Shown one piece after another: positions 16,388-58,772 of a stretch of 64,000 bases of DNA (positions are counted from its first letter, which is position 1; each line of letters begins with the position of its first letter). The notes beneath the pieces were generated by a model. It ran no database searches. It was not told where the DNA came from and saw only the letters and a program-made list of their open reading frames with translations. The translations under genes and the position numbers were made by a program. The DNA is from a virus, in the IMG/VR virus record IMGVR_UViG_3300008050_000038, positions 1 through 64,000 of that record; one strand, 5' to 3'.

Positions 16388-16786
16388 ATGGCAACATTAA
16401 CAGCAAAATTAAGCTTATCAAGTTCAAATGTTTCAACAGACAATTTAAGTGTACTCCTAAGTAATGTTTTAACAGTAGGTGGAGATTATAGAAGTTTTAG
16501 AAAAATTATAGCTTCAGGAGCAAGTAATTTAGAAACAGCAAACATAGTAATAAGCAACGCTTCTTATGGAAAAGCATATGTTTTACTTCATAACACAAGT
16601 ATTGTAGCAGCAGAAATAATAACTATAGGTGAGAATGCTGATACTAATGCAACTTTAGATTATACTAATATAACTTTAGGAGCAGGAGAATTTGCATTTT
16701 ACCCTTGGAATTCTACAGTAGATTTAGTAGCAGACGCTGCTTCTGGAGACCCAGTATTAGAAGTAATGATATTTGAAGCAGCATAA
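16388..16786 (+). CDS. Small virion protein, paralogue A
   Basis: 132 residues beginning M-A-T-L-T-A-K-L-S-L-S-S-S-N. It shares its whole layout with the next gene: the S-S-S-N / D-N-L-S-V-L-L-S-N-V-L-T start, a beta-rich core, A-Y-V-L-L-H-N matched by H-Y-V-Y-I-K-N, and a G-E-F-A-F-Y-P-W-N strand matched by G-E-F-A-Y-I-P-A-K. The two are clearly tandem paralogues. The composition is typical of phage head or tail accessory proteins, with no catalytic residues. A distant relation to decoration proteins is inferred. Confidence 0.5.
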   Translation: MATLTAKLSLSSSNVSTDNLSVLLSNVLTVGGDYRSFRKIIASGASNLETANIVISNASYGKAYVLLHNTSIVAAEIITIGENADTNATLDYTNITLGAGEFAFYPWNSTVDLVADAASGDPVLEVMIFEAA

Positions 16787-25354: not shown

Positions 25355-26239
25355 ATGAGTATATACAAAACAGTATCAAGTAAAGTAGTAATCAGAAAAA
25401 TATTTAGAGATCTTAAACCTTCAAAAGATAATTGGATAGATGACGCTATAGAATGGATAGGAGAAGCTTTAGAGCATATTGGGGCTGCACCACAGCTATG
25501 TCAAAAACAATGTGTTTTAAATATTAAAGATCATAAAACAATGATGCCTTCTGATCTTTACTATATAAATCAAGTAGCAATTAATAATAAAGTTTCTATT
25601 GCATCTTCTGAAGAACTAGACACATTAACATCTAAAGTAAAAGACTTACAAGATCAAATTAAAGATGCGCAAGCAAATGGATTAGAATACTCAGATACAG
25701 CTTCAGTATTACATGATATAAATAGTAGAATTGTAATATTAGAAAATGTTTATTTTTCAGGAGATGTTAATATGCAACCTTTACAATACGGTGCAAGTAC
25801 TTTTCATAGAAGTATGCATTGTGACGGGTGTATAAATGAAAATATAAACTATGAAGAAACTTATATTGTAGATTGTGATTATATAAAAACATCTTTTAAA
25901 ACAGGTAAAATATGTATAAGCTATATGGCTTTACCTATAGATGATGATTGCTATCCTCTAGTGCCACAAGACATTAGTTATCAAGAAGCTATGTTTTGGT
26001 ATGTATATAAAAAAATGTTATTGTCAAATCCACAAATTAAAAACAATGGGATAGATTATAATTTTGCAGATCAGAAATGGAAGTACTACTGCACACAAGC
26101 TAGAAACGCAGCTAACTTCCCAGACATAGATAGAATGGAAAGCTTTATGAATCAATGGGTTAGACTAATACCACAGATAGATAGTCATGATTTAGCTTTT
26201 GAAAACTTAAACACAAGAGAAAATTTATATAGAAGCTAA
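25355..26239 (+). CDS. Putative neck/ring protein, crAss-like type
   Basis: 294 residues. The opening V-I-R-K-I-F-R-D-L-K-P, followed by W-I-D-D-A-I-E-W-I-G-E-A-L-E-H-I-G, is a conserved start I associate with crAss-like neck proteins. A short coiled coil (about 85-128) follows, then I-S-Y-M-A-L-P-I-D-D-D-C-Y-P-L-V-P and a helical C-terminus (F-M-N-Q-W-V-R-L-I-P-Q). It ends in a TAATG overlap with the large tail gene, which suggests matched production of the two interacting parts. Which ring it forms cannot be decided from sequence alone. Confidence 0.6.
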   Translation: MSIYKTVSSKVVIRKIFRDLKPSKDNWIDDAIEWIGEALEHIGAAPQLCQKQCVLNIKDHKTMMPSDLYYINQVAINNKVSIASSEELDTLTSKVKDLQDQIKDAQANGLEYSDTASVLHDINSRIVILENVYFSGDVNMQPLQYGASTFHRSMHCDGCINENINYEETYIVDCDYIKTSFKTGKICISYMALPIDDDCYPLVPQDISYQEAMFWYVYKKMLLSNPQIKNNGIDYNFADQKWKYYCTQARNAANFPDIDRMESFMNQWVRLIPQIDSHDLAFENLNTRENLYRS

Positions 26240-32936: not shown

Positions 32937-34535
32937 ATGAGAAATAGAATACTACAAAGATTAGAAGCTAAAAGAAAAACAAAAAGATTTCAAATGGGGG
33001 GCACGCCACTGCCAGGAGGAGAAGTACAACCTATACCAGGATCAGATGCTGTTGAGTTTAACGGACAAACTCACGATCAAGGAGGAATAATGGTAGACAA
33101 TATAACTGAAGTAGAAGATGGCGAAACTATGGATCAAGTTACTATGGGTAAAGGAGGTAAAAAGAAAGATTATTTTTTCTCTTCTTATCTAAAAAAAGGT
33201 GGTAGATCTTATGCTGACATGCATAAAAATATTTTAGCAATGGGAGGTGGACAAGAGGATATAGATTATTTAGCTAAAATGCAAGAAGCTGCTGCAGGTA
33301 GAAATCCTAACAATGTTAAAACAGAATACCAAGAAGGTGGCCCAAGAAATAGTCAAGAAGGAAATAAATATCAAGTAGCGTCAGATGCTATATATGGTAG
33401 TATTGATGATGAGATGGGTACAGTACCTGACTATCAGCCAGGTTACACTGTAGATGGTGTTCAAATGTATACTGGAGAAGGAGATACAGACTTTCAAACT
33501 AAACTGCAAGACGAAGAGTATAGAAATGCTTGGATGAAAAATGTAGACCCTGAAGTATTAAAGGCGGCAAATATTGAAAGTTTTGATGATATGGGAGATC
33601 CAAAGAATGTAACAGCATACCAAAAGGCTTGGAATGATGCAAACCCAAATAATAAAGTTGTAGTAGATGGTAAGTTTGGAGAACAAACATTTAGAACAGC
33701 TAAGGTTACTCCAGCTGAAGAAGAAGAAATTATAGAAGAAACTCCAGACACAGAAGAAGATACTACTACAGATACAGAAGTTCCTGAAGAAAAAAAGAAA
33801 GATTACTCTAGCACTTTACTAGGATTAGGTAGTATGATACCAGCAGTTATGGCATTTAATGATAAACCTGATTATATGGAGTCTCCAGATTTACAAGCTC
33901 CTGGAATAGTTAAATCAGAAGATGTAGCTAAACAACATTTAGATAGAGTTGATTTTAATGATCAGTTAGCGCGTAACTCTGCTGATGCAACAGCTATGAA
34001 TAAATTTATTGACACTTCTGGAGGAGGTCCTGCTAGTATGGCTAACAAAATGGCTATGTACGCTAAAAAGCAACAAGGAGATAGAGAAATTAAAGCTCAA
34101 GAAACTAGAGCTAATACTGCTATAGCTAACGAAGAAGCTAACATGGATAGTGCAAGAAAAGTTAGGAATGCTAATGCCGCATTAGATGCTAGTAAATTTA
34201 ATGTAAAATCTCAAGAAGCAGCTGCTAGTGCAAACACTAGAAACAAAATGTATGTTGACGAGTTTAATAGAAGTGCAGATGCTGCAACTAAAGACAGAAG
34301 ATTAAATGCTGTACAATATGGTATAAATACTCTTGCATCTTTACATAGAGATAAACTTATGTATCAAGCTAGCGCTGATGTAACTGACGCAATAGATGGG
34401 CAAAGAGGAATAATGGATAGGTTTAATAATAGAACAAACAATATAATTCCTTATACTGAAACTACAACTACACCTCCAGAAGAAACAACAGCTAAAAGAG
34501 GAGGATATAGACAACTTAAAAATTTAAGAAGATAA
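32937..34535 (+). CDS. Cargo/internal virion protein with peptidoglycan-binding-like domain
   Basis: 532 residues. The basic leader holds K-R-F-Q-M-G-G at 16-22. The conserved segment F-N-G-Q-T-H-D-Q-G-G-I at 41-51 leads to E-V-E-D-G-E, and K-K-G-G lies at 86-89. Residues about 222-256 (V-T-A-Y-Q-K-A-W-N, then V-D-G-K-F-G-E-Q-T-F) match the peptidoglycan-binding PG_binding_1 fold core. An acidic linker (about 262-290) follows. The last 150 residues are helical and the protein ends in K-R-G-G-Y-R-Q-L-K-N-L-R-R. The binding domain suggests contact with the host cell wall during entry. Neighbours on both sides are cargo-type genes. Confidence 0.55.
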   Translation: MRNRILQRLEAKRKTKRFQMGGTPLPGGEVQPIPGSDAVEFNGQTHDQGGIMVDNITEVEDGETMDQVTMGKGGKKKDYFFSSYLKKGGRSYADMHKNILAMGGGQEDIDYLAKMQEAAAGRNPNNVKTEYQEGGPRNSQEGNKYQVASDAIYGSIDDEMGTVPDYQPGYTVDGVQMYTGEGDTDFQTKLQDEEYRNAWMKNVDPEVLKAANIESFDDMGDPKNVTAYQKAWNDANPNNKVVVDGKFGEQTFRTAKVTPAEEEEIIEETPDTEEDTTTDTEVPEEKKKDYSSTLLGLGSMIPAVMAFNDKPDYMESPDLQAPGIVKSEDVAKQHLDRVDFNDQLARNSADATAMNKFIDTSGGGPASMANKMAMYAKKQQGDREIKAQETRANTAIANEEANMDSARKVRNANAALDASKFNVKSQEAAASANTRNKMYVDEFNRSADAATKDRRLNAVQYGINTLASLHRDKLMYQASADVTDAIDGQRGIMDRFNNRTNNIIPYTETTTTPPEETTAKRGGYRQLKNLRR

Positions 34536-34536
34536 T

Positions 34537-36981
34537 ATGGCAAATAAATATAGTAGATATGAATTACAACCTTTTCCTAGTTTATATGTAGATAATAAAC
34601 AACCGGAAATTGCTCAGTTATTATCAGATAGATATGATAAAAATAAGCAATCAAAAGATTTAATAGATAGAACTTTATCTCAACTAGAACTATTAGAGGG
34701 GGATAGAGGACATTTAGAGAGAGTTAAAACAGATGTTAAAACTACACTTAATGATCATATTAAAAAAGGTGACTGGGAGAACTCTTCGTTAGTAGTTGCA
34801 GATGCTGCAATGTTAGTGGAGACAGATGCTGGTTTAATTGCTGCAAATAAGTCTATGAAAAATAGGCAAGCTGAAATAGCGGCTGTAAGAGAAGCTAAAC
34901 TAAATGGTATTCCTATGTTAGATTTTGGATCTAATATTAGAAAGACACATCAATCTTATTATTATGATGAAGAAACTGGTTCTTATATAACTAATGTATA
35001 TGAGCCTATGGCAACAAAGCAATTAGACTATAGAACTAGAAAAGAAAAAATGATAGGTAAGATACCTGCTAGCCAATATAATGCTATGATGGCTGGTATA
35101 AGTAGAGGTCAAACTAATAAAACTGCTAGTCTTGTTGTTGATCAGTATATCCAAGATACTGCAGAAGGGCAACAAGAATATAGAAAAATAATGGAATTGG
35201 AATTACCACAATCATTACCATTAGAAGAAAGATCTAAATTAGCTAAAGCTCAAATACTACAAGACTTTAGAGAAGTTGCAAGGCAACAAGAATACAATAA
35301 AAATAGTGCTGTACCAGGTCAAGGTCAAGGCGGAAATGGTATAGCTCCTGGTATAACTATAACATCTAGTCAAGATAGTAAGATTGTAACTGGATTTGAT
35401 AAAGCTGATGATAAGATTAGTAAGATGAATAAAACTAACATTGTTTTACTAAAGCACTTAGAAAACGCAACAAGTGAAGAAGAGAAAGAGAATTATCGTT
35501 TACAAATAGCAAACAATAATAAACTTTTAGATTCAAGTCTTAAAAAACTTGCTAACTCTAGTGAGGAAGGTAAAAAAGCTTATGAGGACTATTTAACACT
35601 AACAGATAGATTTAGAGATTTAGGTGAAGATGGGGAGGTTCTTTTAGCAGCTACTCAATACTTAACATTAGATACTAATGATACAGATACAAGTTGGGGT
35701 GATCTTGCACTTGCAACTGCAGCTGGCGCTGCTTCTGGTGGAACACTTGGAGCAGGACTAACATGGTGGTCAGGACCAGGAGCTGCATTTGGAGCGGGAG
35801 CAGGAGCAATTGGTGGAGGAATAATTGGGTTTTTTGGCGCTTTATTTGGTGAAACAACTAAACTACGTAATGTAAGAGATTGGCACAGAACTCAAGGAAA
35901 GAATGAGTATGGAGGACCTACTTTAGGTATACCATTTGTAGATGATGAAAGAGAGCAATTAGCGGATGAGTTATATGGAGGAGAAAATCCTAACAATCCT
36001 GCTATACTTGGAGGTCCTACTATTAAACATTTAAATAATCAACTAGGAACTAATTTTTCAGAAGATCAATTAGAAGAAGTTATGGGGCTGACAAATTCTT
36101 ATTATACTTTTATGGTTGATGATAAAAGCGTAGATGGAGAAGGTAATAAAACTAAAAGACTTAGTGGGGATAACTTATTTAAAGGAGTCAATGAAAATGA
36201 CTTTACAGTTAATCAAAAAACTATGTCTTATGATATGAGTGATAAGGGTAAATCGAAAAGAAATAATGCAAATGCTTTTATTCAAGAAAATGTAAATTTA
36301 AAAAATGGAGGTATACAGTTTGAAGGTATGAATACTAACACTAATGAATTTGATAAGTGGATAAATGGCGATATAGATGAAGGAGGTATTGGAGGAGTAG
36401 ATAATTTAACAATTAGAGGTGTAATGTTACCAGATATTACAAATAATGCCCCATTAAGAATAACATTTGGATCACAAAAAGATGGTACTAGAGCATCTGA
36501 TAGAACTGCTTATATCACAGATCCAACAATGTTACAGCCAGGAGGATGGGTTCATGATTTACTTAAAAAGCATTATGGCAGAGTTGATGCTGCATATGAA
36601 GAGAAAATAAGAATAGATTATGATAGAAGAGGTTATGGTAATGTAACTTTAGACGATTATACTCTAAATTTAGCAGAGAAAAAAGTAATTATAAACGGAG
36701 GAACACAGGAAGATGTGTTGAGGTATAAGAGGGCACAAGAAGATTATACAATAAAAGCTATGCTAGTACAGCCAGAAACCTTTAACTTTGAGCATTATAA
36801 AAAAGGACCAAATGGAGAGCTTGGATTAATAACAAATAACGGATTTATTCCTTTTCAATTAAATGGTACCTTTAATGAAGCTGCATGGACTGAGTTAAGT
36901 AATAGACCTCAAGAATTACAAGGTTTAAGAAATACAATGTTGAATACAAGCTTACAAGACTTTACCAATCTAGGAATATAA
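34537..36981 (+). CDS. Large internal/ejected virion protein with glycine-rich membrane segment
   Basis: 814 residues. The N-terminal 300 residues are helical and charged. Residues about 387-440 form an Ala/Gly-rich hydrophobic stretch (A-T-A-A-G-A-A-S-G-G-T-L-G-A-G-L and A-G-A-I-G-G-G-I-I-G-F-F-G-A-L-F-G) that could span a membrane, and the C-terminal half is mixed alpha/beta. The architecture fits a protein carried inside the head and delivered into the host envelope. No enzyme motif is seen. It lies directly before the polymerase polyprotein, matching the cargo block of crAss-like phages. Confidence 0.55.
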   Translation: MANKYSRYELQPFPSLYVDNKQPEIAQLLSDRYDKNKQSKDLIDRTLSQLELLEGDRGHLERVKTDVKTTLNDHIKKGDWENSSLVVADAAMLVETDAGLIAANKSMKNRQAEIAAVREAKLNGIPMLDFGSNIRKTHQSYYYDEETGSYITNVYEPMATKQLDYRTRKEKMIGKIPASQYNAMMAGISRGQTNKTASLVVDQYIQDTAEGQQEYRKIMELELPQSLPLEERSKLAKAQILQDFREVARQQEYNKNSAVPGQGQGGNGIAPGITITSSQDSKIVTGFDKADDKISKMNKTNIVLLKHLENATSEEEKENYRLQIANNNKLLDSSLKKLANSSEEGKKAYEDYLTLTDRFRDLGEDGEVLLAATQYLTLDTNDTDTSWGDLALATAAGAASGGTLGAGLTWWSGPGAAFGAGAGAIGGGIIGFFGALFGETTKLRNVRDWHRTQGKNEYGGPTLGIPFVDDEREQLADELYGGENPNNPAILGGPTIKHLNNQLGTNFSEDQLEEVMGLTNSYYTFMVDDKSVDGEGNKTKRLSGDNLFKGVNENDFTVNQKTMSYDMSDKGKSKRNNANAFIQENVNLKNGGIQFEGMNTNTNEFDKWINGDIDEGGIGGVDNLTIRGVMLPDITNNAPLRITFGSQKDGTRASDRTAYITDPTMLQPGGWVHDLLKKHYGRVDAAYEEKIRIDYDRRGYGNVTLDDYTLNLAEKKVIINGGTQEDVLRYKRAQEDYTIKAMLVQPETFNFEHYKKGPNGELGLITNNGFIPFQLNGTFNEAAWTELSNRPQELQGLRNTMLNTSLQDFTNLGI

Positions 36982-36991
36982 TAAAACCAAT

Positions 36992-39900
36992 ATGATAGAC
37001 AAAAAACAGAACGGAGGTTTAGAAGATGATAATCAAGATTTAATCCAACCATCAGGAGATCAGACTTTAAATAGTAATAACTTAATTAACACTGTAGAAA
37101 ATAATAAGCCTTTAGAGATTTCAGGTTTAGCCGGTATAGATATATTAAGATCTTTACAAAATGAAGGATATGATCCTGCAGGAGCTACTACACATACAAT
37201 AAATAAAGATGATTTTAGTGAGTATAAAAGACTTATAGATGGTCCGTTTAGTTTAACTGATAATAGTATAGATGATAAAAGAGCTGAAGGTCAAGGCTTT
37301 GGAGAGAAAGCTGCTCATGGTCTTCTTAAGCTTTTTCCTAAAACCGCATCACATGTACTAGGTTCTACTGTAGGGTTGTTAGATGGGTTTGCAGAAGTAG
37401 CAAAAGATGCTTATAACAATGGTATTGCAGCATCTAATTGGAATAAATTTTTTAATAATGATTTCCAAAGATCTTTAGATGACTTTAATAAAGCTGTAGA
37501 CGATAAACTTCCGCATTACTATACCTCTCAAGAAGCAGATCTTAGCTTTGCTCAATCTGTATTTGGTAAAGGTGCTGCTAATTTTTGGACTAACGATTTT
37601 TCACAAGGACTTTCTTTTGTAGCTGGTGCTGTATTGTCTGAACTAGCTACAGCAGGTACTGCTAGATATTTAATGCCAGCTAAAGCAGCTGCTAAATTAA
37701 AAGGTATAGCAGCAATAAGATCTACTAGCTATGGTCAGAAAGCTATACAAGCTAGTAAAAATTTACAAAAAATAAATAAAGCTGAAAAAATTTACGCCGG
37801 GTTAACAACAGGAAGAAGAATAATGACCGGTGCATTTTATGAGTCTGGAGTAGAAGCTAGACATAACTATGATGCTGTAGTAGATAAACTTAATCAATTG
37901 CATGCAGAAAGAGGGTTAGGAGAACCTACAGCAGAAGAACAAGCAAAAATTAAAGACATCGCAGTTAAAGTTTCTAACGGTGTATTTGCAGGTAATGCGG
38001 CTTTAGTTGGTTATAGTAATTTTTTAATGTTCCCTAAAATATTTGGTAGCGGTTTAATTAAAAATAAAAAATTTAAAAATAAAATAACTCAAGGAGCAGA
38101 CGGAAAATACAAAGCTAAACATAAAGACTTTGGTAGAATGCGAAACTTTATAGACAACAAATATTCTTTTGTTGCAAAAAGAATGGCATATGAAGGTCTT
38201 GTAGAAGAAGGAGGTCAGAAAACATTAGACATTTCAGGGCAGTATGCTGCAGAAGACATGTATTTTAATCAGAAAAATCCTGGTCAAATGCAAGCTATTG
38301 GTGAGATAATGAACCATACGTCTGATGGTATGGCTAAAGCTTATGGTAGTGTTGAAGGACAAAAAGAAATATTTTTAGGAGCAGTTTTAGCAGGATTAGG
38401 ATTACCTAGTTTTATACATACAAATGAAAAAGGAGAAAAGTCTTTTAAAATAGGGTATGGTAAATCAGGTGGTTTCCTTGATTTTATGAACCAATACTCA
38501 GAAGGTAGAAAAGAAGTTGAAGACGTAGTTGACTACATGAATAACAACCCAGATGCTTTAGCAGGTATCAAAAATAATTTTGATATGCTTATGGGCATTA
38601 AAACTGCAGACGACCAAAGAGATTATGCAGATGCAACTAATAATGACTTTGCTTACAAGAATGCAGATCATGATGCATTTTTTGCTTTTGTACATAGTAG
38701 ACTACAAGGAGGATATTTTGGGGATGTGCTAGATAGTTTAGAAGACATGAGAGGTATGGATCTTGATTCTTTTGAAGCTATGTTTAACTATGAAGAACAA
38801 ACTCAAGACATGTCTAAAACAGAAAGAGAGGCATTCTTAAGTGAGAGAAGAAACAAAGTTATTGATACTCATATAGAAAGAGCAAATAAAATTAAAGAAA
38901 TACATGAGTCTTTAGATAATACTAGAATAAGTCCTGCAGCTAAAAAAACAATAGCGCAAGCTTTATCTAGCACTGCAGATCTAGACTCAAGAGAACAAAA
39001 ACTTATTAGTGAGCTGGAAGAAACAGGAGGATTTGCTTTAACTGCTATTACAGATAAAGAAGAAAACGACAGATTTTCTAATGATAGTATTTTTACTAAG
39101 CTAAAAAACTTTACTATGAAAAAGCTAGGGCTTAAAGGTAAAGATGTAATGGAAAACTCTGAAGTTGGTAAAGAAATTAAAAGAGAATTAGGTATAAAAG
39201 AATTTACAAAGCCTGGACACCCATATTTAGTATGGCAAAGAATGGTTCAAAAACTACAAAGTCTTAAAAAGCAGCAAGATGCTTATGAACAAGATGACAA
39301 TGTAGAAGGTTACGTAGAAGTAGGAGACCAAATAGAAAAATTAGAAGATGAGATTGCAGAATTAACATCTGCAATAGATAATCAAACTGCACCAGATATA
39401 TCATCAGAAGAACAACAAATACTTGATGAGTATAAAAAAAGAGATCCTGCAGGGTATGAGCTTAATAAAGATGAAATGATTAAAAAGCTTCAGGACCTTA
39501 GAAGGATTAGAGCTAAGAGACATCAAATGTTAAATCTTGTACAACAACTGTTAGACCCAATTGCAGCTAACGATAAGATACAACAAATGGAAGAGGTTGT
39601 ACAAGACATTTTAACTGAAGAAGAAAGAAAAAGTTTACCACCAGAAGAACAACGTTTAGCTAGAAAGTATAAAGGTAAGATTGTTGAGTTTGAATATACA
39701 GATAAAAATGGAAACACTAGAACACACAGAGTACTTGTAAAAGATTCTGAGAATATAGTTAAACTTCCTAATGAAGAAACTTTTAGATTACTACAGAGAA
39801 AGAATGATTTGCTTAAGAAAGGAGCGTTGACAGAAGATGAAAAAGCTGAATTAGAATTACTAGAAGAAGAATTAAAAAAGCCGGAGCACGTAACACAGTA

Positions 39901-42900
39901 TGATAATTCGTTAAGCATTGGAGTGTTTAAAAAAGCTACTAATGTAAAAATTCTAAGTGAAGAAGATTTAGTACTTAAGCAGCTGCAGTCTGTAACGCAA
40001 GTACTGCAAGATCAGCTAGCAGAAAAACTATCAGAAGCAACAAAAGCTATAGAAGAATCTAAACAAGAGCTTATAGATATAACTTTACAGATTAAAGATA
40101 TAAAAGTAGCTATAAGAAATGCTAAAACTAATAAGAAAGGTGAGTTAAGAGTTAACTTAAACTCTATAGGTAGAGGAACTCAGAATAAAGTAGAGACTGC
40201 TTATCAGCTGTTACAAAACCTAAAAGCAAAAGAACAAGCTTATAAAGCATTACTAGTTAAGTTTAATGAAGATGTAGCTACATTAAATGACAATGCATTA
40301 AGAATGCAAGTTATACACACTACTATTACAAACCCAGAGACAGTTGCTGGTATACTAGGAAAGTCTAGTTCTAAGCAAGAAGTTTTTGAAGCTGTTACTG
40401 AACTGTTAGGATTAACTTCTATGGAAGAGTTTTATAAAAATCTTGGGGATCAAGGATTCTTTGATACAAATGCACTAACTGCTTTAGCCGGTCAAAAGAA
40501 TAAAGACGGAGGATATGATGTTGATAATCAATTACTTCAAGAAATATTAGGATTAGCTTCTAGTAATATAAGTAAAGATTATTTAGATTTGATGAATACT
40601 GATTTAGAACACTTTAGAAGTGAATTGATTCTTTTAACTAAACATAGAGAAGATGTAGAAAGAATGCTTAGTAGAATGGTTACTCCTGATGGACAATCTG
40701 TTATGTTTCCTCCTGATGGTTTAGGCCCTAAAGATTTAGAATATCTTAGTAGAGAGCTTAGAATGGTAGATCAAGACATAAAAACTTTAGAAGGCATTGT
40801 TAGTATGATGGAAGCTGAGACTGAACAAAACCTTTTAGATGCAACTAATAGCGAGCTAATACAAGAAAGACTAAAAGCTATACAAACACAAAAAGAAATT
40901 AATGATGTGTTTATAGAATATGAAAATTTCTTAATGTCTGTTTTATCAGAGCCTGCAGAAGAAGCTGAATTAGAAGAAGGAGAGACACTACCTGAACAAC
41001 TTGATATAGAAAGTCAAAGAGATAATTCTCCTAGCTTAGAGAGCGTAGGATGGACTAAGACTGCAGGTAACCATGGTGCGTCTTTAGCTAAATGGGAACA
41101 AAAATATAAACAGTTAGTATCTCAAGGAGATAAACTAACTGAAGCAGAGCAAATGGAATTACAACATGTTGAGTCTCAGTTAAGGTTCTTTAGAAAATCA
41201 TATGAAATATTTGACTTTAGTAAAAAGACAGGTGCTAGACTTAAAATTGTAACTAGATATAATATTAGCGATGATCTAAAAGATAAAATTGTTTTTTATG
41301 ATATAGCTAAAGCAAAGAAATCAGGTAGATTTGATGACCCTTCTAACTATCAATACTCAGACAACTTAACTGAAAATCCAAATAGAGATGAAACTTTAGA
41401 AAATATAAAACTATTATTAGTAGATGCTACTGGTCAACCTATATTACTAGATGGTGGCCTTGTATATACTGATATGAATAGTTCTGATATGGTTAACTCT
41501 CAAGGTAGATTTAAAGGACAGCCTTCAGATCTAGATAAAGATGGTAACTTAAGAGAGGATTTAGGATTAGATGTAGCACAACAAGATTTTATTGCTGAAA
41601 GAAATAAGATACTATCAGACAATCAAGAAAGATTCTTTTTTATTACTAAGAAAAGTAGAGGTGTTGCTATAAAAACTGAAGAAGGATTGCAACCTGGGCT
41701 AGGAAGATTAGAAGTTAAGAAAGGAAAAGGTAACTCAGGAGTAAGACCGGCTAAAGAAGAAGACTTAAAAGACATGCCTCTTACTATAGCGCTACCTAAC
41801 GCAGGACAAAAAGGTGCAGACCAACAAGTTAATCTATTTGGATTTAAAGTAACTAGTAGGTTTGCTTACTTTGGTACACCTACTCGAGGTCACATGGGTA
41901 CAAACAATTTAATACCTGCACAGATTTCTAGGTTAAGTGAAAACCAAGTAAATAACATATATAACCTATCTAGATACTTTGCTGAGAATGATAAAGGAGG
42001 TATTAATATAGGAGGTAAAGGATTTACAACTATACTTAAAGAACAAATAATGTATGGTGATAGATCTAAACAGAGAGAAAGACAAGAGTTTTCTATATAT
42101 ATGAAAGATGATGCTATATTCTTTGGTGATCAAGGAAAGAGCATAAGCATGGAACAACTAAAAGATCCAAACAAATTCTCTGATATACATGAAGAGTACA
42201 AAGGATTTTTAAGAACTTTATATTTTAATATTCTTTCCCCTGCTTTAGCTACAGATCAAAAAGCTAGAGTAGAAGCTGGAAAGAAAGGGAGAAAGACTGG
42301 AACGTACGTAGCTCCAGACTATACAAAATTTAATGAGGTTATAGTAAATGATGATTTAAGTACAGAAGTTAAAGAGTGGGATAACTACACTCATTATTTA
42401 TTATCTGATGTAGGTAGAGATGTTGCAGATGTACCTGTAAAAGTAGATTTACCTTTAGCAACTAGCCCTAAAGTAGATCAAAGATATACTCCACAATATA
42501 AGAATGTATATCTTGAGCACAGTTCACAATCATTTACAAATGAAGGTATAGAAAATGATAAGAATGATTCAAATAGAACTGTAGATAGAACAGAAGACCC
42601 TGTAGTAGACACTACTAAAGAAGAAGATATATATGAAGAAAGAGTTGTAGTTAATACTAAAACAGGAGAAAGAAAAACCATAATAGTTAAAGTAGCTAGT
42701 GATGAAGAAAAAGCTATAATAGAAGGAGAGGAATCAAAAGCCGCACAAGAAGAAACACCAGACACTTTAGAAGATAGTCCGTTTTCTCAATCATCAATGG
42801 ATGATGAGTTTGATGAGCCTTTCTTTTTATCTAACATGGAACAACCTTCTAATAATATAGATTTAAATCAAGAGTTAGAATGGTTTAACGCTAATATGCC

Positions 42901-45900
42901 TAAAGATTCTAATGGAAACTTTTTAGTAGGAATTGATATGATAAAAGGATTGATAGATGGTAAAGCTTTTGGTAAGTTTACTAAGGATGGTAATATATTA
43001 TTATCAGACTTATTAAATACCCCGGGTATAGTATACCATGAATCTTGGCACGCAATTACTAGAAGATTTATATCTCCAGAACAAAGGTATGCACTATATG
43101 ATGAGGTAAGAGGTATGAGAGGATCTACTCAAACCTTTAAAGGAGAAACTAAAAAAATGTCTCAGCTAACAGATAAAGAAGCAGATGAATGGTTAGCGGA
43201 AGAGTTTAGAGAATATGCATTATCAAATGGAACTCATAAAGTAGGTAGTAATATACAAAAAAGTATATTTGATAAAATACTAGCTTTATTAGATTTCTTT
43301 ATTAATAATAAATCTCAAGCACAAGAGTTAATGTCTAGAATAAATTCAGGATACTTTAGTAACCCTACTAACGAAGTAACTATATATGATTCTAAAACCG
43401 AAGCTTACTTTGAAGGCACTAAGTTAACTGCTACTATGCGTAATAACGTTATGGAAGGTATGACAGTTTTGTTATTTAGTAAAGCATTAAAACCGGGTAG
43501 CGGCGTATTTACTTTAGCAGATTTTGTTAATCCAAAGAAAACTGAGGCAAGAAATAATGCTGTTAGAAGTTTATATGGAGATACAACAACAAAAGGAACT
43601 GTATACTCACAAATACATCTTTACCTAAAAACAGCTAGAGATAACGCTACTACGCAAGAAGAAAAAGATAATCTTACTAATACTATGAGGGCTATATATG
43701 ATAACTGGACCCAATTGCAACAAGAGCATGCAAAATATTTAGAAAGATTTACTATAAACGTTACAGAAGAAGCAGAAGAATTAGAAAGAATAAGAGAACA
43801 ATTTGGTAAACCACAAAACGAAATAGACCCTAGTGTATATTTACCAAAAGCAGTAAGGTTATTATTAGCTACATTACCTAAAAGTAAAAATGGAAAATTT
43901 GTACTTAACGAAAGCGGACTCCCTAAACTAGTAGAGTTTGGTAGTATAATGAATTTTATGTATAAAGAATTTGCTAATACTAATCCATTAGATTTTAGAA
44001 AAAACTTAATAAGATTAGAATCAAAAAGACCTGAAGTAAAACTTATAAAAAATAGATTAGGGCTGCAGTCTGATGATCTAACATCAAAAACTCCAGATCA
44101 AATTAGATTAATAGTTCAAGCTATGATGCAGTTTGATCAATCTAACAATACATTCTATACTCAACTTATGACAAGAGATGGAGGTAGAAGACTTATTGAT
44201 AGTAATCAAAATAGAGTAGAAGATAAGATAAAGTTAAACTGGACTAATAACTTTAAAGAAAACATACAAAGCAACAAGTCTTTAGGTAAAGATGTAAACG
44301 GAGAGTTAATAATTAATAAAAATGCTAAAGTAAAAATAGGTAGAAAGAAAAAAACATTTGCTGAGTGGGCCCTTGAAGACAAAACACCTCAAGAAGCTTT
44401 AATAGTACTAGATCAATTAGGAATTACATTTACAAAACCTGATGTATTTTCAGAGCTGTATGCAGCAGATGAAAACATAAAACAAGCTGTTAATTATATA
44501 TTACAATCTGTATATAATGAACCAGTAAGTAATATATTTAAAGGAGACATACAAGCTAACTTAAGAACATTAGTAGAGCTAGAAGCAGCTACTAATCCTA
44601 CAACGGTAGACTTACAACACAGGAGTCCTGATGGTAAAACAATACATGGTGTTAATTTAAAAACTTATGCAGATGTATTAATTTCTGACATAACAAAAAT
44701 TGGGCCTACTGGGGAGTCTATAGTAAATATTGAAAAAGTAGCAAACTTATTAAAGTATGATAACTTAGCTAATTCAGTTTATTTAAAATCTATGTTAGAA
44801 AATCCTGCTACACCTTTACAAGTTGTAATACTTCAGGGTATAGATCAAAATTTTGGTAGAGGTAAATCATTATCTAAAGGATCTCCAGTAGATATTGGAG
44901 TAATGATGGTAAACTCTTTGTTAAGTAAAGGTATAATGCCAATACTTAGAACAGCTGATAAGAAAACAGAGTTTGGTATTCAGTATGCTACTCCTAGTTT
45001 AAATCTAACTAAAGAAGCTATGATAGAAAGATTAAAAGGATATTTAGCAGATGAGCTTAGAGTTGCTTCTAAATTTAATAGTAAAAGAAAATCTATATTA
45101 CATAGAGTATCTAAACTAAAAGACAGTGGAGGTAACTTAAGATTTTTCCAAGGACTAGTTCCATCTCTAGCTAGAAAAACATATGGTAAATATTTATCAG
45201 AAGAACAGATTGCTGAAATAGTTAATAGAGAAAGCGTAGCAAATGATCTTTCTACATTCTTAGATAATCAAGTAGAATCTACTATGAGCACGCTAAGCAC
45301 TTATAACATAGCTACAGCTGGAATAGATTCTAATCTACTAGATAGAGCAACGGTAGTATCTGTAGATAGACCGGGTGTTACTCCTAACCAAGTAATAGGT
45401 GAACAATTTACCTATGAGTATATGACAGGAGTAAATGAGCAAGGAAAATTATTATTAGGTGACTTTGCTTTATATACAGATTTATTTAAAAGAACATCTG
45501 GTATTAGCGGTACCAAAGCTTATCCAACATCTGATCCTAATATTTTAGATTGGATGAATACTAATGTGCCAAACTTATTATCTAATAAAGAGCATACTCC
45601 TAATTTAAGAGTTTCACATAGAGCTGCAATTAAAACAGAAGCTCCTTATTTAGAGCAGTATATGGCTACCTTAGACTTAATGGGTATGAGCACAGACTTT
45701 ATGAATAACGTTAATGATGTATACTCTAACATGGAAGAATTTGATGGAGGTGGATTTATAACATTAGATGCATATAGAAGTTTATTATATAGAACCGGTA
45801 AGTGGACTCCAGCACAAGAAGACTTCTATCAAAAATTAGTTAACAAGGAAGATTTTACAACAGAAGATGTAGCATTATTACCTCCAATAAAACCACAATT

Positions 45901-48900
45901 GTTTGGACCTTTTATTGCTGAGAATTCTAGACTAATGACTTTCCATAAGTTTGCATTATTTCCACTAGTACCAAGACTAATGGTAGACAAAGCGTTTAAT
46001 AACATACATCAAGACATGCTTAACAATGACATTGATTATATGATATTTGAATCTGCAGCTAAAGTAGGTGGTATAACAGCAGGTAGAGAGTTTGTAAACA
46101 ATGATAATAGAGAAGGGTATGATCCTTTTTACGAAGAGCTGCCAACCGGGTATAGCGCATATAAACCTATGGCGCTTGACGAGCAAGGACAACCTTTAAG
46201 TTTACAAGAATTAAATTTCTCAGATTTAGGTATACAAGTAGAGATGGCACCAAAGACTAAAGAAGAAGTTACTGAAGGATCACAACTACGTTCTTTGTTG
46301 CCTGTAAACATATATGATAATGGAGAGTTATCTGAAGAGTATCAAGAGTTTGAAGATCTAGTAGATAAGTACCATGAAATTAATAGTACTTTAGTTGCAA
46401 AAGATTTTAATAGTTTAGTTAAAAAACTTAAACTAGAAAAAGATGAAAGCGGAGGGTACAAACTAAACTCAAAAGATCTAGAAGTATTTAAAGAGGTTCT
46501 TATAGAAGAGTTTACAAAAAGAGATAATCCTTTACATACTATAGATGCTATCAAACAATTATTAGATAGTGATACTAAATTTATAGAACAGTTATTTGAA
46601 AAGAATAAAATAGAAAGTTTATTATATTCTCTTGTAAATAATAATGTAGTAAAAAGAAAAATGCCTGGCGGACAGTTTGTATTACAAGCATCTACAGGAT
46701 TTGAAAATGAAATCAAAGCTATAAAACAAAAAGATTTTGAATTAGCTGAGAGAGAGAATTTAGATTTACATACATCACAATTAAAACCATTAAAGTTCTA
46801 TAGAAAAGCAGATCCTAATAATCTTGGGTCAGAAACTTTAGCAATGCAGGTATATTTACCAAGTAGATTTAAAGATAGAATGGGATTAACTATAGAAGAT
46901 GTTAATGATCCTAATATAGATCCTGAATTATTACAACTTATAGGTTTCCGTATACCAACAGAGGGACTTAACTCTATGGACTTTATAGAAGTTGTAGGAT
47001 TTTTACCTAAATCATTTGGAGACACTGTAGTAGTGCCATCTGAAATTGTAGGTAAAGCTGGATCGGATTATGATATTGATAAGTTAAGTATTTATTTCCC
47101 TAATTCTTATAAAGATGGAGACACTTTTAAAAGAGTTAAGTTTGATGATACTAAAACTATTAAACAACAATCTAAAAAAGCATTACAAAATGAACTACAA
47201 ACTATTATTAGAGATGTCCTTAGTCATCCTGCAAGTTTTGATCAATTAATAACTCCTGTTGGGGCTTCTACATTAAAAGACGAAGCTAAAGTAATTGCAA
47301 TGAAAAGAAATCCAGGACAATTTGATGCGGAAGGTAATAAGATAAAACAACCTATAAGTCAAATTCTTAAGTTAGAAAATATGATGAATACATCATATAG
47401 AATGTTCTCTGGATTAGGAGGTATAGGTATTGTAGCTACTAGTTCTACACAACATGCTAAAGGACAAAGGCCAGGAGTTAATTGGAACTATGCAAACAAT
47501 GAAGATATAGTATTTAATTTTGAAGGAGAAGACTTTGGATTATCTAGAGTATATGATGTAGCAGAAGAAGATAAAATTAGCGCTACTATTGGGCAGTATG
47601 TTACAGGATATGTTGATGTAACTAAAGAAGATTTTGTATTTGATATTAATGCTGGTATAAATATGGCTCCTATACATATGGCTTTAGTTAGATCAGGTGT
47701 ACCTTTAAAATCAGTAATTAATTTTATGTCTCAACCTATCATAGATGATTATGTAAAATTAAAAGAACTTAATCAACCAATGTATGCTACAAGAGCACTT
47801 AAATCAGACGAAAGAATAGTTGAAGATTTAATAATAAAATATGGTAAACAATCAACTACTGATGTTAAATTTAAATTAAATACACTACAAAGCATGATAG
47901 GTAAATCACCTACAGACATGTCACAAATTCAAATGAGAATGCAAGTGCAAGTTTTAAATGATTTCTTAAGGTATAAAGATTTAGCAGAAGATCTTTTATT
48001 ATTAAAAGATGCTACTAGTATAGATACTTCTAATTTAAATAGTAGTATAGCTGTTAGATATGCTATACAATCTATCAATAGACTAGAAACAGATGGAAAA
48101 TTTGTAAATTTAGATGAATTATTATATAGTAATAAAGAAGGTGCCTCTACAGTGGGTGCTTATACTACACTATTAAATGAAGTAGACGGTATGTTTGCAG
48201 AATTTAAATTAGGTGAGTATTTAGTAGATGCAAAACAGTTTATAGATACTAAAATATTTGAAGCAACAGATAAAGATTCAAAAATGATTAAAGATGATGT
48301 AATCTATAAAATGAAAAAGTTTGAAAATTTCTTAGCTACTACTATAGTTCAAAATACATCTTATGAATATAGTAAACTACATGAGAGAGGTAGAGATTTA
48401 TTTATAGGTGAAAATAGCTTACCTAGAAGAATAAATAATTTTAAAACTATAAACGGGTATTCAAACAACTTGCTAATTCAAGAGTTAACACCTATTCTAC
48501 AAGTATATACTGAAGACAGTCAAGAAGCTACAGTAGATGGTTTAAGATTATTTAGTAAATCATTACAACCTTATGATGTAGATTTATTAGCAGATGCTTT
48601 TATGGAATTAAAAGAAATAAATCCTGAGTTAGCTCAAGACTTAATTATATTTAGTGCATTACAATCAGGATATGATTATTCTCCACAATCTTTTTTCCAA
48701 GTTATACCAGGAACAGAAGTATTAGCTAGTCTATCTAAATATTTTAAACAAAATAAAACAGGAGATAGAACAAGCGGGCTAGTTAATAAAGCTAATATGG
48801 AAAATTTATGGACAGACTTCCATAAAAATTATTCAAATGATAAGAAAGTAGTTCCTAATGTTTATAGAAAAGAAGTAAAAAACAGTATGTCTTTATATAA

Positions 48901-49231
48901 TAATGATAACTTTGTAACAGTTACTACAAAAATTGGAGAAGAAACAATTGGTTCTAAAACTACATCAACATATGATACTCAGTTATTTAAAAACACAGGG
49001 TCAGTTGATAAAAAAGGTATGGCTGTATTTACAAAAATTAATAAGAAAGGTGTACCTTATAACTTTATAGAAGCTACTGGGGAAAGCGCACCATCTATAG
49101 TTAATAGAAATGGCTCAGAGATTGCTCAAGATAGTGATAGAATGGAATACTCTAAACAAGAATTACCAACTAACCAATCGTCAGAAGTATCAGATGTACT
49201 TAAAGACAAAAAATGTAAAAAAGGAAATTAA
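36992..49231 (+). CDS. Giant virion polyprotein: zincin metallopeptidase domain plus crAss-like RNA polymerase
   Basis: 4,079 residues. The leader M-I-D-K-K-Q-N-G-G is followed by about 450 residues with hydrophobic stretches and long coiled coils (near 750-1,320). A zincin motif H-E-S-W-H lies at 2,016-2,020 with a plausible third ligand in E-W-L-A-E-E-F (Glu2066 or Glu2070). In the last quarter R-I-P-T-E-G-L-N-S-M-D-F leads to G-S-D-Y-D-I-D-K, with aspartates 3359, 3361 and 3363. This is the magnesium-binding DxDxD signature of the QDE-1-like RNA polymerase of crAss-like phages. The enzyme would transcribe early genes after injection. The peptidase might process the polyprotein. The stop overlaps the next start (TAATG). 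Confidence 0.85.
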   Translation: MIDKKQNGGLEDDNQDLIQPSGDQTLNSNNLINTVENNKPLEISGLAGIDILRSLQNEGYDPAGATTHTINKDDFSEYKRLIDGPFSLTDNSIDDKRAEGQGFGEKAAHGLLKLFPKTASHVLGSTVGLLDGFAEVAKDAYNNGIAASNWNKFFNNDFQRSLDDFNKAVDDKLPHYYTSQEADLSFAQSVFGKGAANFWTNDFSQGLSFVAGAVLSELATAGTARYLMPAKAAAKLKGIAAIRSTSYGQKAIQASKNLQKINKAEKIYAGLTTGRRIMTGAFYESGVEARHNYDAVVDKLNQLHAERGLGEPTAEEQAKIKDIAVKVSNGVFAGNAALVGYSNFLMFPKIFGSGLIKNKKFKNKITQGADGKYKAKHKDFGRMRNFIDNKYSFVAKRMAYEGLVEEGGQKTLDISGQYAAEDMYFNQKNPGQMQAIGEIMNHTSDGMAKAYGSVEGQKEIFLGAVLAGLGLPSFIHTNEKGEKSFKIGYGKSGGFLDFMNQYSEGRKEVEDVVDYMNNNPDALAGIKNNFDMLMGIKTADDQRDYADATNNDFAYKNADHDAFFAFVHSRLQGGYFGDVLDSLEDMRGMDLDSFEAMFNYEEQTQDMSKTEREAFLSERRNKVIDTHIERANKIKEIHESLDNTRISPAAKKTIAQALSSTADLDSREQKLISELEETGGFALTAITDKEENDRFSNDSIFTKLKNFTMKKLGLKGKDVMENSEVGKEIKRELGIKEFTKPGHPYLVWQRMVQKLQSLKKQQDAYEQDDNVEGYVEVGDQIEKLEDEIAELTSAIDNQTAPDISSEEQQILDEYKKRDPAGYELNKDEMIKKLQDLRRIRAKRHQMLNLVQQLLDPIAANDKIQQMEEVVQDILTEEERKSLPPEEQRLARKYKGKIVEFEYTDKNGNTRTHRVLVKDSENIVKLPNEETFRLLQRKNDLLKKGALTEDEKAELELLEEELKKPEHVTQYDNSLSIGVFKKATNVKILSEEDLVLKQLQSVTQVLQDQLAEKLSEATKAIEESKQELIDITLQIKDIKVAIRNAKTNKKGELRVNLNSIGRGTQNKVETAYQLLQNLKAKEQAYKALLVKFNEDVATLNDNALRMQVIHTTITNPETVAGILGKSSSKQEVFEAVTELLGLTSMEEFYKNLGDQGFFDTNALTALAGQKNKDGGYDVDNQLLQEILGLASSNISKDYLDLMNTDLEHFRSELILLTKHREDVERMLSRMVTPDGQSVMFPPDGLGPKDLEYLSRELRMVDQDIKTLEGIVSMMEAETEQNLLDATNSELIQERLKAIQTQKEINDVFIEYENFLMSVLSEPAEEAELEEGETLPEQLDIESQRDNSPSLESVGWTKTAGNHGASLAKWEQKYKQLVSQGDKLTEAEQMELQHVESQLRFFRKSYEIFDFSKKTGARLKIVTRYNISDDLKDKIVFYDIAKAKKSGRFDDPSNYQYSDNLTENPNRDETLENIKLLLVDATGQPILLDGGLVYTDMNSSDMVNSQGRFKGQPSDLDKDGNLREDLGLDVAQQDFIAERNKILSDNQERFFFITKKSRGVAIKTEEGLQPGLGRLEVKKGKGNSGVRPAKEEDLKDMPLTIALPNAGQKGADQQVNLFGFKVTSRFAYFGTPTRGHMGTNNLIPAQISRLSENQVNNIYNLSRYFAENDKGGINIGGKGFTTILKEQIMYGDRSKQRERQEFSIYMKDDAIFFGDQGKSISMEQLKDPNKFSDIHEEYKGFLRTLYFNILSPALATDQKARVEAGKKGRKTGTYVAPDYTKFNEVIVNDDLSTEVKEWDNYTHYLLSDVGRDVADVPVKVDLPLATSPKVDQRYTPQYKNVYLEHSSQSFTNEGIENDKNDSNRTVDRTEDPVVDTTKEEDIYEERVVVNTKTGERKTIIVKVASDEEKAIIEGEESKAAQEETPDTLEDSPFSQSSMDDEFDEPFFLSNMEQPSNNIDLNQELEWFNANMPKDSNGNFLVGIDMIKGLIDGKAFGKFTKDGNILLSDLLNTPGIVYHESWHAITRRFISPEQRYALYDEVRGMRGSTQTFKGETKKMSQLTDKEADEWLAEEFREYALSNGTHKVGSNIQKSIFDKILALLDFFINNKSQAQELMSRINSGYFSNPTNEVTIYDSKTEAYFEGTKLTATMRNNVMEGMTVLLFSKALKPGSGVFTLADFVNPKKTEARNNAVRSLYGDTTTKGTVYSQIHLYLKTARDNATTQEEKDNLTNTMRAIYDNWTQLQQEHAKYLERFTINVTEEAEELERIREQFGKPQNEIDPSVYLPKAVRLLLATLPKSKNGKFVLNESGLPKLVEFGSIMNFMYKEFANTNPLDFRKNLIRLESKRPEVKLIKNRLGLQSDDLTSKTPDQIRLIVQAMMQFDQSNNTFYTQLMTRDGGRRLIDSNQNRVEDKIKLNWTNNFKENIQSNKSLGKDVNGELIINKNAKVKIGRKKKTFAEWALEDKTPQEALIVLDQLGITFTKPDVFSELYAADENIKQAVNYILQSVYNEPVSNIFKGDIQANLRTLVELEAATNPTTVDLQHRSPDGKTIHGVNLKTYADVLISDITKIGPTGESIVNIEKVANLLKYDNLANSVYLKSMLENPATPLQVVILQGIDQNFGRGKSLSKGSPVDIGVMMVNSLLSKGIMPILRTADKKTEFGIQYATPSLNLTKEAMIERLKGYLADELRVASKFNSKRKSILHRVSKLKDSGGNLRFFQGLVPSLARKTYGKYLSEEQIAEIVNRESVANDLSTFLDNQVESTMSTLSTYNIATAGIDSNLLDRATVVSVDRPGVTPNQVIGEQFTYEYMTGVNEQGKLLLGDFALYTDLFKRTSGISGTKAYPTSDPNILDWMNTNVPNLLSNKEHTPNLRVSHRAAIKTEAPYLEQYMATLDLMGMSTDFMNNVNDVYSNMEEFDGGGFITLDAYRSLLYRTGKWTPAQEDFYQKLVNKEDFTTEDVALLPPIKPQLFGPFIAENSRLMTFHKFALFPLVPRLMVDKAFNNIHQDMLNNDIDYMIFESAAKVGGITAGREFVNNDNREGYDPFYEELPTGYSAYKPMALDEQGQPLSLQELNFSDLGIQVEMAPKTKEEVTEGSQLRSLLPVNIYDNGELSEEYQEFEDLVDKYHEINSTLVAKDFNSLVKKLKLEKDESGGYKLNSKDLEVFKEVLIEEFTKRDNPLHTIDAIKQLLDSDTKFIEQLFEKNKIESLLYSLVNNNVVKRKMPGGQFVLQASTGFENEIKAIKQKDFELAERENLDLHTSQLKPLKFYRKADPNNLGSETLAMQVYLPSRFKDRMGLTIEDVNDPNIDPELLQLIGFRIPTEGLNSMDFIEVVGFLPKSFGDTVVVPSEIVGKAGSDYDIDKLSIYFPNSYKDGDTFKRVKFDDTKTIKQQSKKALQNELQTIIRDVLSHPASFDQLITPVGASTLKDEAKVIAMKRNPGQFDAEGNKIKQPISQILKLENMMNTSYRMFSGLGGIGIVATSSTQHAKGQRPGVNWNYANNEDIVFNFEGEDFGLSRVYDVAEEDKISATIGQYVTGYVDVTKEDFVFDINAGINMAPIHMALVRSGVPLKSVINFMSQPIIDDYVKLKELNQPMYATRALKSDERIVEDLIIKYGKQSTTDVKFKLNTLQSMIGKSPTDMSQIQMRMQVQVLNDFLRYKDLAEDLLLLKDATSIDTSNLNSSIAVRYAIQSINRLETDGKFVNLDELLYSNKEGASTVGAYTTLLNEVDGMFAEFKLGEYLVDAKQFIDTKIFEATDKDSKMIKDDVIYKMKKFENFLATTIVQNTSYEYSKLHERGRDLFIGENSLPRRINNFKTINGYSNNLLIQELTPILQVYTEDSQEATVDGLRLFSKSLQPYDVDLLADAFMELKEINPELAQDLIIFSALQSGYDYSPQSFFQVIPGTEVLASLSKYFKQNKTGDRTSGLVNKANMENLWTDFHKNYSNDKKVVPNVYRKEVKNSMSLYNNDNFVTVTTKIGEETIGSKTTSTYDTQLFKNTGSVDKKGMAVFTKINKKGVPYNFIEATGESAPSIVNRNGSEIAQDSDRMEYSKQELPTNQSSEVSDVLKDKKCKKGN

Positions 49232-52200
49232 TGGCTTGTAATATAATAAGAAATAAAGATGGTAAAATAGTTAAAGTTACTGCCGATAACGGCAAAGACT
49301 CAAAATTATTTAAAGATATAGTTAACTTAGGTTACGATAAAGAAACAGCTTTAAAGAAGTGGGCCGTTGCATATACACCTACATTTAAAAACTGGTTTGG
49401 TCAAGGTAATGTAGATGTTAATGGAGAACCAAAGATTGTTATGGTTAATCAAGATCCAATGTTTATAGCTGACGACGCCACTACTAAACATGCTACAGAA
49501 AATTTAGGTAGTTTTAAATCTAAAAAAGATCCATCACCTTTATTAAATGAAATAAAACGAAGATTTAAATTAGTTAAAACTGATGGTACTATAAGAAATA
49601 TACCTTACATGGAAGATGTTTATGGTAGAGCAGAAAAAATCGAAAAGATGTATCCTGGTGTAAGAGCCTTTGTACTACAAGATATGGGAGGAGACTATAT
49701 TAGTTTAGACATTAGTACTAGTTTAGATGTAGATAATGTTTATCATCAAGCACAATCTAATAGTCTTGCTGAGAGCAGCCAAGAGGTAGATCTAGCTATG
49801 AAGCAATTCCTTAGAACTTTAGGAGTTAGATTACAAGAGGTGCCTGAAATAAGAGATAGAAATGGTAATGTTTTATCTGTTACAGCTAAAGCGGACATGC
49901 TTAATAAAGTTGTAGAATACTCTAAAGGAAAAATGGGTATAGATACATTACCTGAAGAAGCGGCTCACTTTATGGTTGAAATATTACAGGCATCAAATAG
50001 CCCATTATTTACATCTATGATGAATAATATAGAAAAATTTGGTGTATATCAAGAAGTAATGGAAAGTGATACTTATCAAAAGCTTTATAAAGGAGATGAA
50101 AATATGCTTAAAAAAGAGGCTATAGGTAAGCTTATAGCAAAGCATGTAATAAAAAACATTAAAGGAAATGAAGCCCCGGTAAATATTAGGAGAGTAGACA
50201 GCTGGTGGTCAAGAGTTAAAGATTTTATAGCAAGTATATTTGGGAAATCTAATGCATATGTAGATGCGGCACAAATGATGGTAAACAATAGTGTTGAAGA
50301 ATATTTAGATGTAGAAAAAGCAATTAAAGGAGGGCTTTCTGGAGAGTATTACCAAGACGAAAGTAAATTTAAATCATATCGTAAAAAAGCATTTGGGGCA
50401 GTAGAAAATGCTGATGTAAGCGGCCAAGATGTTCTTGATGCAATAACTCCTGAACAAATGAAAAAGAAAAAATGGTCAGGAGACACTTTAAAAAAGCTTG
50501 AAGATGAAAATAAATATTGGGAAATTGAAAGAATGTCTTTAGAAAAAGCTGGATTAAAAGAAACATGGTTTGTAGAAGATGGAAATGAAATAGAAAGATA
50601 TATAGGTAAAAAAAATAGCCCTTATCCTGGCGTAGTAATAAAAGGAAGAGTATCTGATGCAGTTAAAAAACATTTTTGGAAAATAAACAGAGGAAAGATT
50701 ACAGATCTTAGTGGTAAAGAAGCTAAACTTCGTTTAGATAATAATGAAATGAGAAAAGTAACAGGTACTATGGGGCACACTGTTATGGAAGAGCTTGTAC
50801 AATTGTACGTTAATAAAAAGGGAAATAGAAAAACTATTTTAAATAAATCTTTATTTACTGAAGCTCAATTTCAAGTTTTAGAGCAAGGTGTAAAAGATCT
50901 TATAGCTCAGATTAAAAAGGTTCAAAAAGAAGTTGATCCTGAAGGTAAGGTTACTATAAGAACAGAGCAAATGGTTACTAATAGAGATCAAACCGTGGGA
51001 GGGTCTATAGATCTTATTGCTATATTTAGTGATAATTCTGCAGCTATATATGATTATAAATTTGTATCGCCGTCTATTCAAGCAGGATATGTAGATAGAA
51101 CTTCTAAAAGAATTGTAGAAGATCCTTTTAATGTTAAAATGGCAACATATGACATGCAAATGTCTCAGTATAAAAAACAATTGCTACAAAACTATGGGAT
51201 TACTCAAATAAGACAGTCTAGAATTGTTCCTATACATATTAGATATAAGACAGAAAAAGGAGGGAAACTAACAAATCAAATCACCGTATTACAGATGGGA
51301 ACTAAATATAGTGAGTTCTTACAACAGATACCGGTGGCAGGAGAGTTAACTAGGTTTAATGATATAAATAAATTAATTAGAAAATTACTAGTAAGAAAAG
51401 AAGCTGTTGATAGACAGTTACAAACTAAAAAATATAAAGCAGGGGCTTCTTTTGAGTCTCTTAAAGCTCAGCAAGCAAAAATATCTAAGCAATTAAGAGT
51501 ATTACAAATAGATCAGGATTTAGCATACGTTATAAAATCTCTTGGAGAAGATATAAAAATAATTAATGATAGATTAAGTACTAATAATGAAGTATTAAAA
51601 TCAGGTGAATTAAATCCAAATTATTTAACTAATAGTGATTTAAATGATTTATTAAGTGATCTAATGTTTTACCAGTCATTAGTTAATGTACATGACTATG
51701 TATCAAATATGACTGAGGCAAAACAAAAAGAATATAAAATACTTAGAGATAGGCTTGCAGGGTTCTTAGGGCCAGCTATTACCGCGGTACAAGGTAAGAT
51801 GTTAGAAAGAACTAGTGATAAAGCTCAAGAAAGAGGAGTACAAGGTATAGAAAGTTTTAATCTAGATGTTAGTTGGGCTACACGTAACTTTGTTAATTTA
51901 TCTAAACAATCAAATCCATATTTGAGAAATCTTTGGGAAATGATGGATAAATTAAATTTCCAAAAAAGAAAAATAGTAAAAGCTAAAGCGGAAGAAATAC
52001 AATTTGCACAAGATGCTTTTGTAAGAGATCGTGGTATTAAAGCTTTTGATGATTTATTAAATGAAGATGGTACTTTTAAATCTAAGTACAGTAAAGAATA
52101 CTACACAAGAAGGAACGCAGCGCTTAAAGGAAGCAATTCTAAGTGGTTTTCAAAAGAAGAAGGCAATGTAGTTATAGATGAAGAATACTATAATAAGAAA

Positions 52201-58749: not shown

Positions 58750-58760
58750 AATTTATTTTA

Positions 58761-58772
58761 TTTAATTGATTA
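58761..58772 (-). promoter_or_regulatory. Second copy of the 12-base upstream element
   Basis: The same TAATCAATTAAA as at 61076-61087, placed 11 bases before the AAA ATPase start and overlapping the stop codon of the VWA gene. No Shine-Dalgarno sequence is present at either site. Confidence 0.35.

Follow-up and report, generated by a model that had tools for sequence, protein, structure and literature searches.

The giant virion RNA polymerase chain described here probably belongs to an injected cargo string, whose segments are joined by a peptide bond where they share a gene and by facing terminal cysteines where they are split, with a zincin-like domain beside one of the segment borders. 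This is, as a whole, the best explanation that we can offer for a 4,079-aa ORF of a crAss-like phage and for its relatives in other genomes. In the human gut, no other phages are as abundant as the crAss-like ones. The ORF lies in a stretch of 64,000 nt (the window), which belongs to a linear IMG/VR virus record of 68,267 bases.

The giant ORF and its neighbourhood

As judged by capsid protein homology and gene order, the window comes from a phage of the Crassvirales (crAss-like phages). Its major capsid protein matches that of cr55_1 (tblastn, E=5e-59) and the genes around the giant follow the Suoliviridae order, structural then transcription: a muzzle/stabilization protein, smaller cargo-type proteins, the giant, a 1.7-kaa protein and then genes on the opposite strand. 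The features used below are the following.

26239..31722 (+), tail 'stabilization'/muzzle-type virion protein, 1,827 aa, 11 Cys (PHROG 15100, E=2e-40; contrast in Cys content)
32937..34535 (+), upstream putative cargo protein, 532 aa, zero Cys (synteny)
34537..36981 (+), upstream putative cargo protein, 814 aa, zero Cys (in relatives, the gene preceding the giant is syntenic); outside the cysteine train
36992..49231 (+), giant cargo ORF, 4,079 aa, with N-module, zincin-like domain and virion RNA polymerase on one chain; single Cys
37247..38746 (+), N-terminal module, residues 86-585 (blastp, tblastn; PHROG 32390, E=7e-33)
42800..43378 (+), zincin-like domain, residues 1937-2129 (conservation; AlphaFold)
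43037..43051 (+), HESWH, residues 2016-2020, putative zinc ligands and catalytic Glu (H, E and H invariant in 20 relatives)
43199..43201 (+), Glu 2070, within WLAEEFR, which may be the third zinc ligand (column E141 of alignment A3, invariant)
45389..48271 (+), RNA polymerase core, residues 2800-3760 (profile against 6VR4; AlphaFold; Foldseek)
47066..47080 (+), DYDID catalytic motif, D3359, D3361 and D3363 (alignment with gp66)
49214..49216 (+), codon TGT of Cys 4075, the only Cys of the giant, fifth residue from the C-terminus
49231..54441 (+), cargo protein encoded after the giant, 1,736 aa (MACNII...), with homology to polymerase-associated proteins of the crAss001 gp49 type; single Cys
49237..49239 (+), codon TGT of Cys 3, the single Cys in the 1,736-aa protein and proposed partner of Cys 4075

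The giant ORF runs uninterrupted from ATG to stop. A coding-frame artefact was rejected, minus-strand frame 1 across the giant containing many stops. The two motifs reported in the initial annotation, HESWH and GSDYDIDK in its RIPTEG context (IGFRIPTEG...GSDYDIDK), were both recovered, 1,341 residues apart. The hydrophobic stretches that it mentioned are also present, as Kyte-Doolittle peaks at about 215 and 469, but are modest.

A DNA-level search among phages gave zero matches, and whole-chain Pfam and PHROG scans returned no polymerase or zincin match, PHROG 32390 at the N-terminus being the sole match. This N-module is homologous to the virion structural proteins phi14:2 gp67, phi17:2 gp039 and crAss001-type gp47. 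In shuffled versions of the giant, HExxH occurred in 4.5%, DxDxD in 78% and GSDxDxDK in 0.15%; a second DxDxD of the giant, at 1513, is unconserved. HExxH or DxDxD taken alone was consequently dropped as evidence, being near or within chance in a chain of such length, and conservation decided the matter.

The 1,736-aa protein contains at residues 503-613 a sub-threshold PD-(D/E)XK nuclease match (E=0.022), which agrees with the PDDEXK domains reported for large proteins of the crAss transcription block. Further downstream on the minus strand, the window encodes an ATPase adjoining a DUF2201 metallopeptidase/VWA protein and then a spore photoproduct lyase-like protein (57571-59942 and 59951-60805).

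Assignment of the C-terminal half to the gp66-type virion RNA polymerases

The C-terminal half can be assigned solidly, on homology and predicted fold, to the crAss-like virion RNA polymerases of the phi14:2 gp66 type, as had been proposed initially. It matches gp66 (PDB 6VR4) with phmmer at E=3e-32, and a profile match at E=5e-87 spans nearly the entire core. The giant GSDYDIDK aligns with GSDFDIDK, the catalytic motif of gp66, within the RIPxxG...GSDxDxDK context that marks polymerases of this type.

An AlphaFold model of residues 2800-3760 (pLDDT 80, pTM 0.77) was compared with the PDB by Foldseek. The only significant match was 6VR4, with E=3e-32 and a TM score of 0.72 (of query length); plant RDR2 and gp96 of Thermus phage P23-45 (8h2n, E=0.14) were weak runners-up. 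The presence of two double-psi beta-barrels on one chain is indicated indirectly by this fold match. The structure prediction, which the initial annotation had named as a possible refutation, therefore came out in favour of the polymerase.

A conserved zincin-like domain on the same chain

Residues 1937-2129 around HESWH are conserved throughout crAss-like phages. Among 20 diverse crAss-like sequences, Y-H-E-x-x-H, a Tyr and E-x-L-A-E-x-F-R are invariant. In the AlphaFold model, the core around the HExxH helix has a pLDDT of 76-89 and Glu 2070 is placed on another, downstream helix (model residues 132-148). Searches for a known family were negative: no significant Pfam match was obtained for the domain, the PDB sequence search likewise named no family, and a PDB fold search gave nothing at E<0.001 (IrrE 3dti at E=1.6). 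The zincin named in the initial annotation thus stands as regards the invariant HExxH and the downstream Glu, while no family profile matches and the fold evidence is weak. The domain is likely a zincin, and 'zincin-like' is as far as profile and fold searches allow it to be named. It is probably an active metallopeptidase.

In most lineages the domain lies next to the border at which the N-module meets the polymerase. In phi14:2, cr111_1 and Fpv3, no HExxH was found there. Other HExxH motifs of the cargo set occur at residue 245 of phi14:2 gp65 (L005), at residue 4065 of the L060 giant and at residue 342 of the last protein of L064. Two of these phages, phi14:2 and Fpv3, are among those without one at the border.

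Fused and split genes keep the same segment order

The fusion of zincin and polymerase, implied to be novel at first, cannot count as new: Suoliviridae and many environmental relatives have it as the norm. One-chain giants are found in cr118_1, cr50_1, cr60_1, cr53_1, cr1_1, cr125_1, cr10_1 and cr4_1. Most complete IMG/VR relatives are also one-chain, with about 1,320-1,620 residues between the two motifs. The first five, which are Suoliviridae giants, resemble ours in being a single chain (4,490-4,950 aa) with zincin then polymerase and a C-terminal Cys, and with an N-terminal Cys in the partner where this is seen. They differ by an identity of only ~20-33% over the aligned parts, by a few internal Cys and, in some, by in-frame stops presumably read via a recoded stop.

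GenBank already contains the label 'putative RNAP associated protein fused to zincin protease' (MH616963.1, AXH74541.1; MH552500.1, AXF52200.1), so that a zincin fused to the RNAP-associated protein was on record in crAss-like phages; there, however, the polymerase is a separate gene and the motif is HEQxH, not of the YHExxH...LAExFR type. Literature searches for crAss with zincin retrieved no such report among open-licence papers, one of which describes the transcription block as several large multidomain proteins (PMC7886860). A further known case is Thermus phage P23-45 gp96, a giant injected protein that likewise combines a virion RNAP with a metallopeptidase (PMC10770324). Unlike ours, it is a tape-measure protein that carries the polymerase N-terminally, and its structural match to our core model is very weak.

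Other genomes carry the same segments in separate genes. Steigviridae (cr112_1, cr85_1, crAss001) divide them between two genes, the first of which carries the zincin close to its end, and Dulem virus 41 is split like cr112_1. In all four, the halves are already separate and the domain retains an intact active-site motif. In contigs L031, L032 and L043-L050 the split lies upstream of the zincin and the domain is on the second partner. Phi14:2 has a homologous polymerase core with an aligned DxDxD and the order gp67-gp66-gp65, all three marked in its GenBank record as found by MS/MS; unlike the giant, it encodes N-module and polymerase in two genes, and its HExxH is the different one in gp65. 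In crAss001 the three segments are gp47, gp50 and gp49, proven virion proteins with terminal Cys (PMC10172136), which differ from ours in being three separate proteins, gp50 and gp49 on the strand opposite gp47. Sequence comparison thus shows one order in fused and split genomes: N-module, zincin where present, polymerase, associated protein.

In cr108_1 (L007, NC_055878.1), ~290 bases (16410-16699) interrupt the polymerase gene inside the DxDxD (GSD / YDIDK), and the record annotates the polymerase as two truncated proteins. The interruption is probably a self-splicing intron without an ORF of its own.

Cysteines face each other at the gene boundaries of the cargo

The initial annotation had not mentioned any cysteine pattern. 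At the cysteine rate of the other genes of the window, ~118 Cys would be expected in its five cargo-type ORFs, versus 2 seen. The three smaller ORFs that precede the giant and the 1,736-aa protein contain zero Cys, and these latter two proteins have one each, at the C-terminus and at the N-terminus, respectively. Elsewhere in the window, proteins at 4973-5479, 5491-9936 and 13982-16378 are unusually Cys-rich (8.3%, 4.3% and 5.1%), which sets them sharply apart from the Cys-free cargo.

The same arrangement is found in phi14:2, where both junctions have terminal Cys: gp67 has a single Cys (1797 of 1797), gp66 has two (3 and 2179 of 2180) and gp65 has a single one (3). We scored a Cys in the last 10 residues of the upstream piece and in the first 6 of the downstream piece. 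Across 30 genomes, facing Cys were present at 40/41 train-internal boundaries, whereas the boundary just before the train had neither Cys (25/25). The outer ends of the train had zero Cys. Cys density in the train was 148-fold higher at termini than internally. As a background, 88 non-cargo genes had a Cys in the first 6 residues in 2% and in the last 10 in 8%, and none of 82 adjacent non-cargo pairs had both. The scored intervals were set after the first genomes had been seen, and the genomes share ancestry, so that p-values overstate their independence; despite this ancestry, the gene splits lie at several different places in the train. For five new genomes the prediction was written beforehand, and both Cys were present at 6/6 boundaries, one Cys (cr10_1) being one residue outside the scored interval.

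Individual genomes extend the rule in both directions. In contig L032 (1-20135), the train is split into at least five genes with facing Cys at each boundary: four successive proteins have Cys only at facing ends (in a 209-aa protein, residues 3 and 209 are the only ones) and the next ORF starts MAVC. In cr3_1, conversely, polymerase and last protein form one chain, and their junction has lost its terminal Cys. Two partners in csAssE-Sib are separated by a 192-aa gene that has no terminal Cys, and some polymerases and Suoliviridae giants retain 1-7 internal Cys. The sole exception among the 41 boundaries is the cr273_1 giant, with zero Cys in its last 10 residues (nearest, 5745 of 5794) and a partner with Cys 3. 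This 5,794-aa giant (L058, 11515-28899) has 14 Cys and 36 in-frame stops under table 11; the stops are presumably recoded and the gene end may be misannotated. From these sequence counts, the reciprocal rule is near-exceptionless across crAss-like phages.

A proposed cargo train and its alternatives

We propose that the cargo set forms one continuous string of N-module, zincin where present, polymerase and associated protein. As its homologues are virion proteins, found in crAss001 and phi14:2 virions, the giant would be packaged and ejected into the host together with the 1,736-aa polymerase-associated protein. Segments encoded in one gene would be joined by the peptide bond; for those in separate genes, the C-terminal Cys of the first would join the N-terminal Cys of the next, most likely through a disulfide that arises in the virion and is reduced once it reaches the host cytoplasm. 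Such linkage would keep order and a 1:1:1 stoichiometry while the cargo is extruded through the narrow tail, and would release the subunits, including the polymerase, on arrival. That neighbouring cargo proteins are strung head to tail in this way, with fusion and Cys pairing interchangeable over evolution, we regard as fairly probable.

Structural work on crAss001 provides a setting for the proposal. Its gp47, gp49 and gp50 are in virions and are believed to go partly unfolded through the tail, parts of which are too narrow for folded cargo; the tail contains disulfides, and in the maps most cargo was unresolved and no cargo-cargo disulfide was seen (PMC10172136). The searchable open-licence literature yielded no report of disulfide or terminal-cysteine links in crAss cargo.

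The crAss001 tail and portal-vertex proteins use disulfides (PMC10172136), and the terminal Cys might likewise anchor each cargo protein to other virion parts (portal, tail rings, DNA-binding protein) with no mutual pairing. We consider this distinctly improbable, since it leaves unexplained why Cys stand on both sides of a boundary, why the outer ends are Cys-free and why fused junctions are Cys-free. It is more improbable still, to the point of being hardly credible, that the pattern is a by-product, with cargo purged of Cys because oxidising compartments lie on its way and the terminal ones being leftovers or the result of overlapping start/stop signals. Purging alone is plausible, as the vRNAP of phage N4 (3,500 aa) and two other virion proteins of this control, gp51 and gp52, are all Cys-free (L061, 4524-17524). 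Purging predicts zero, however, and not one Cys per junction side, and the Cys is kept while the residues flanking it at the tail end vary. An artefact of overlapping start/stop junction sequence was ruled out because the pattern holds with partners on opposite strands, in three genomes (cr112_1, cr85_1 and crAss001).

Two other readings concern the zincin. The initial annotation had suggested a polyprotein, cut by the zincin after packaging or injection so that the polymerase is freed from the N-module. The domain indeed lies at the border at which the genes of Steigviridae are split, the active-site motif is invariant, and the P23-45 tape-measure protein also combines metallopeptidase and virion polymerase. 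The domain is nevertheless kept where the halves are already separate, whether it is carried by the first partner (cr112_1, crAss001, Dulem virus 41) or, as in the contigs split upstream of it, by the second; it must therefore have some role besides separating the halves. Neither a cleavage site nor a product is known, and the domain is not found at the border in the three phages named above. The comparison thus gave no positive support for a self-processing polyprotein whose protease is needed to separate the products, and we consider it unlikely. With the cysteine-joined string, the zincin would not be needed for release of the associated protein.

Alternatively, the zincin may act on host envelope or cytoplasmic proteins during entry, its fusion being a mere delivery route. 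It is retained across several gene topologies, in every case on a protein of the injected type, and its position relative to gene boundaries varies, which points this way; no homology to a characterised family was found, however, and we hold this idea only tentatively. It concerns the zincin only and is compatible with the cargo train.

The cysteine rule bears on how multi-megadalton cargo is stored in order and extruded through a narrow phage tail. A train of segments held together by peptide bonds or by paired cysteines would explain why the same cargo set occurs as one, two, three or more genes and, if true, would be a novel means of coupling injected proteins and of uncoupling them afterwards.
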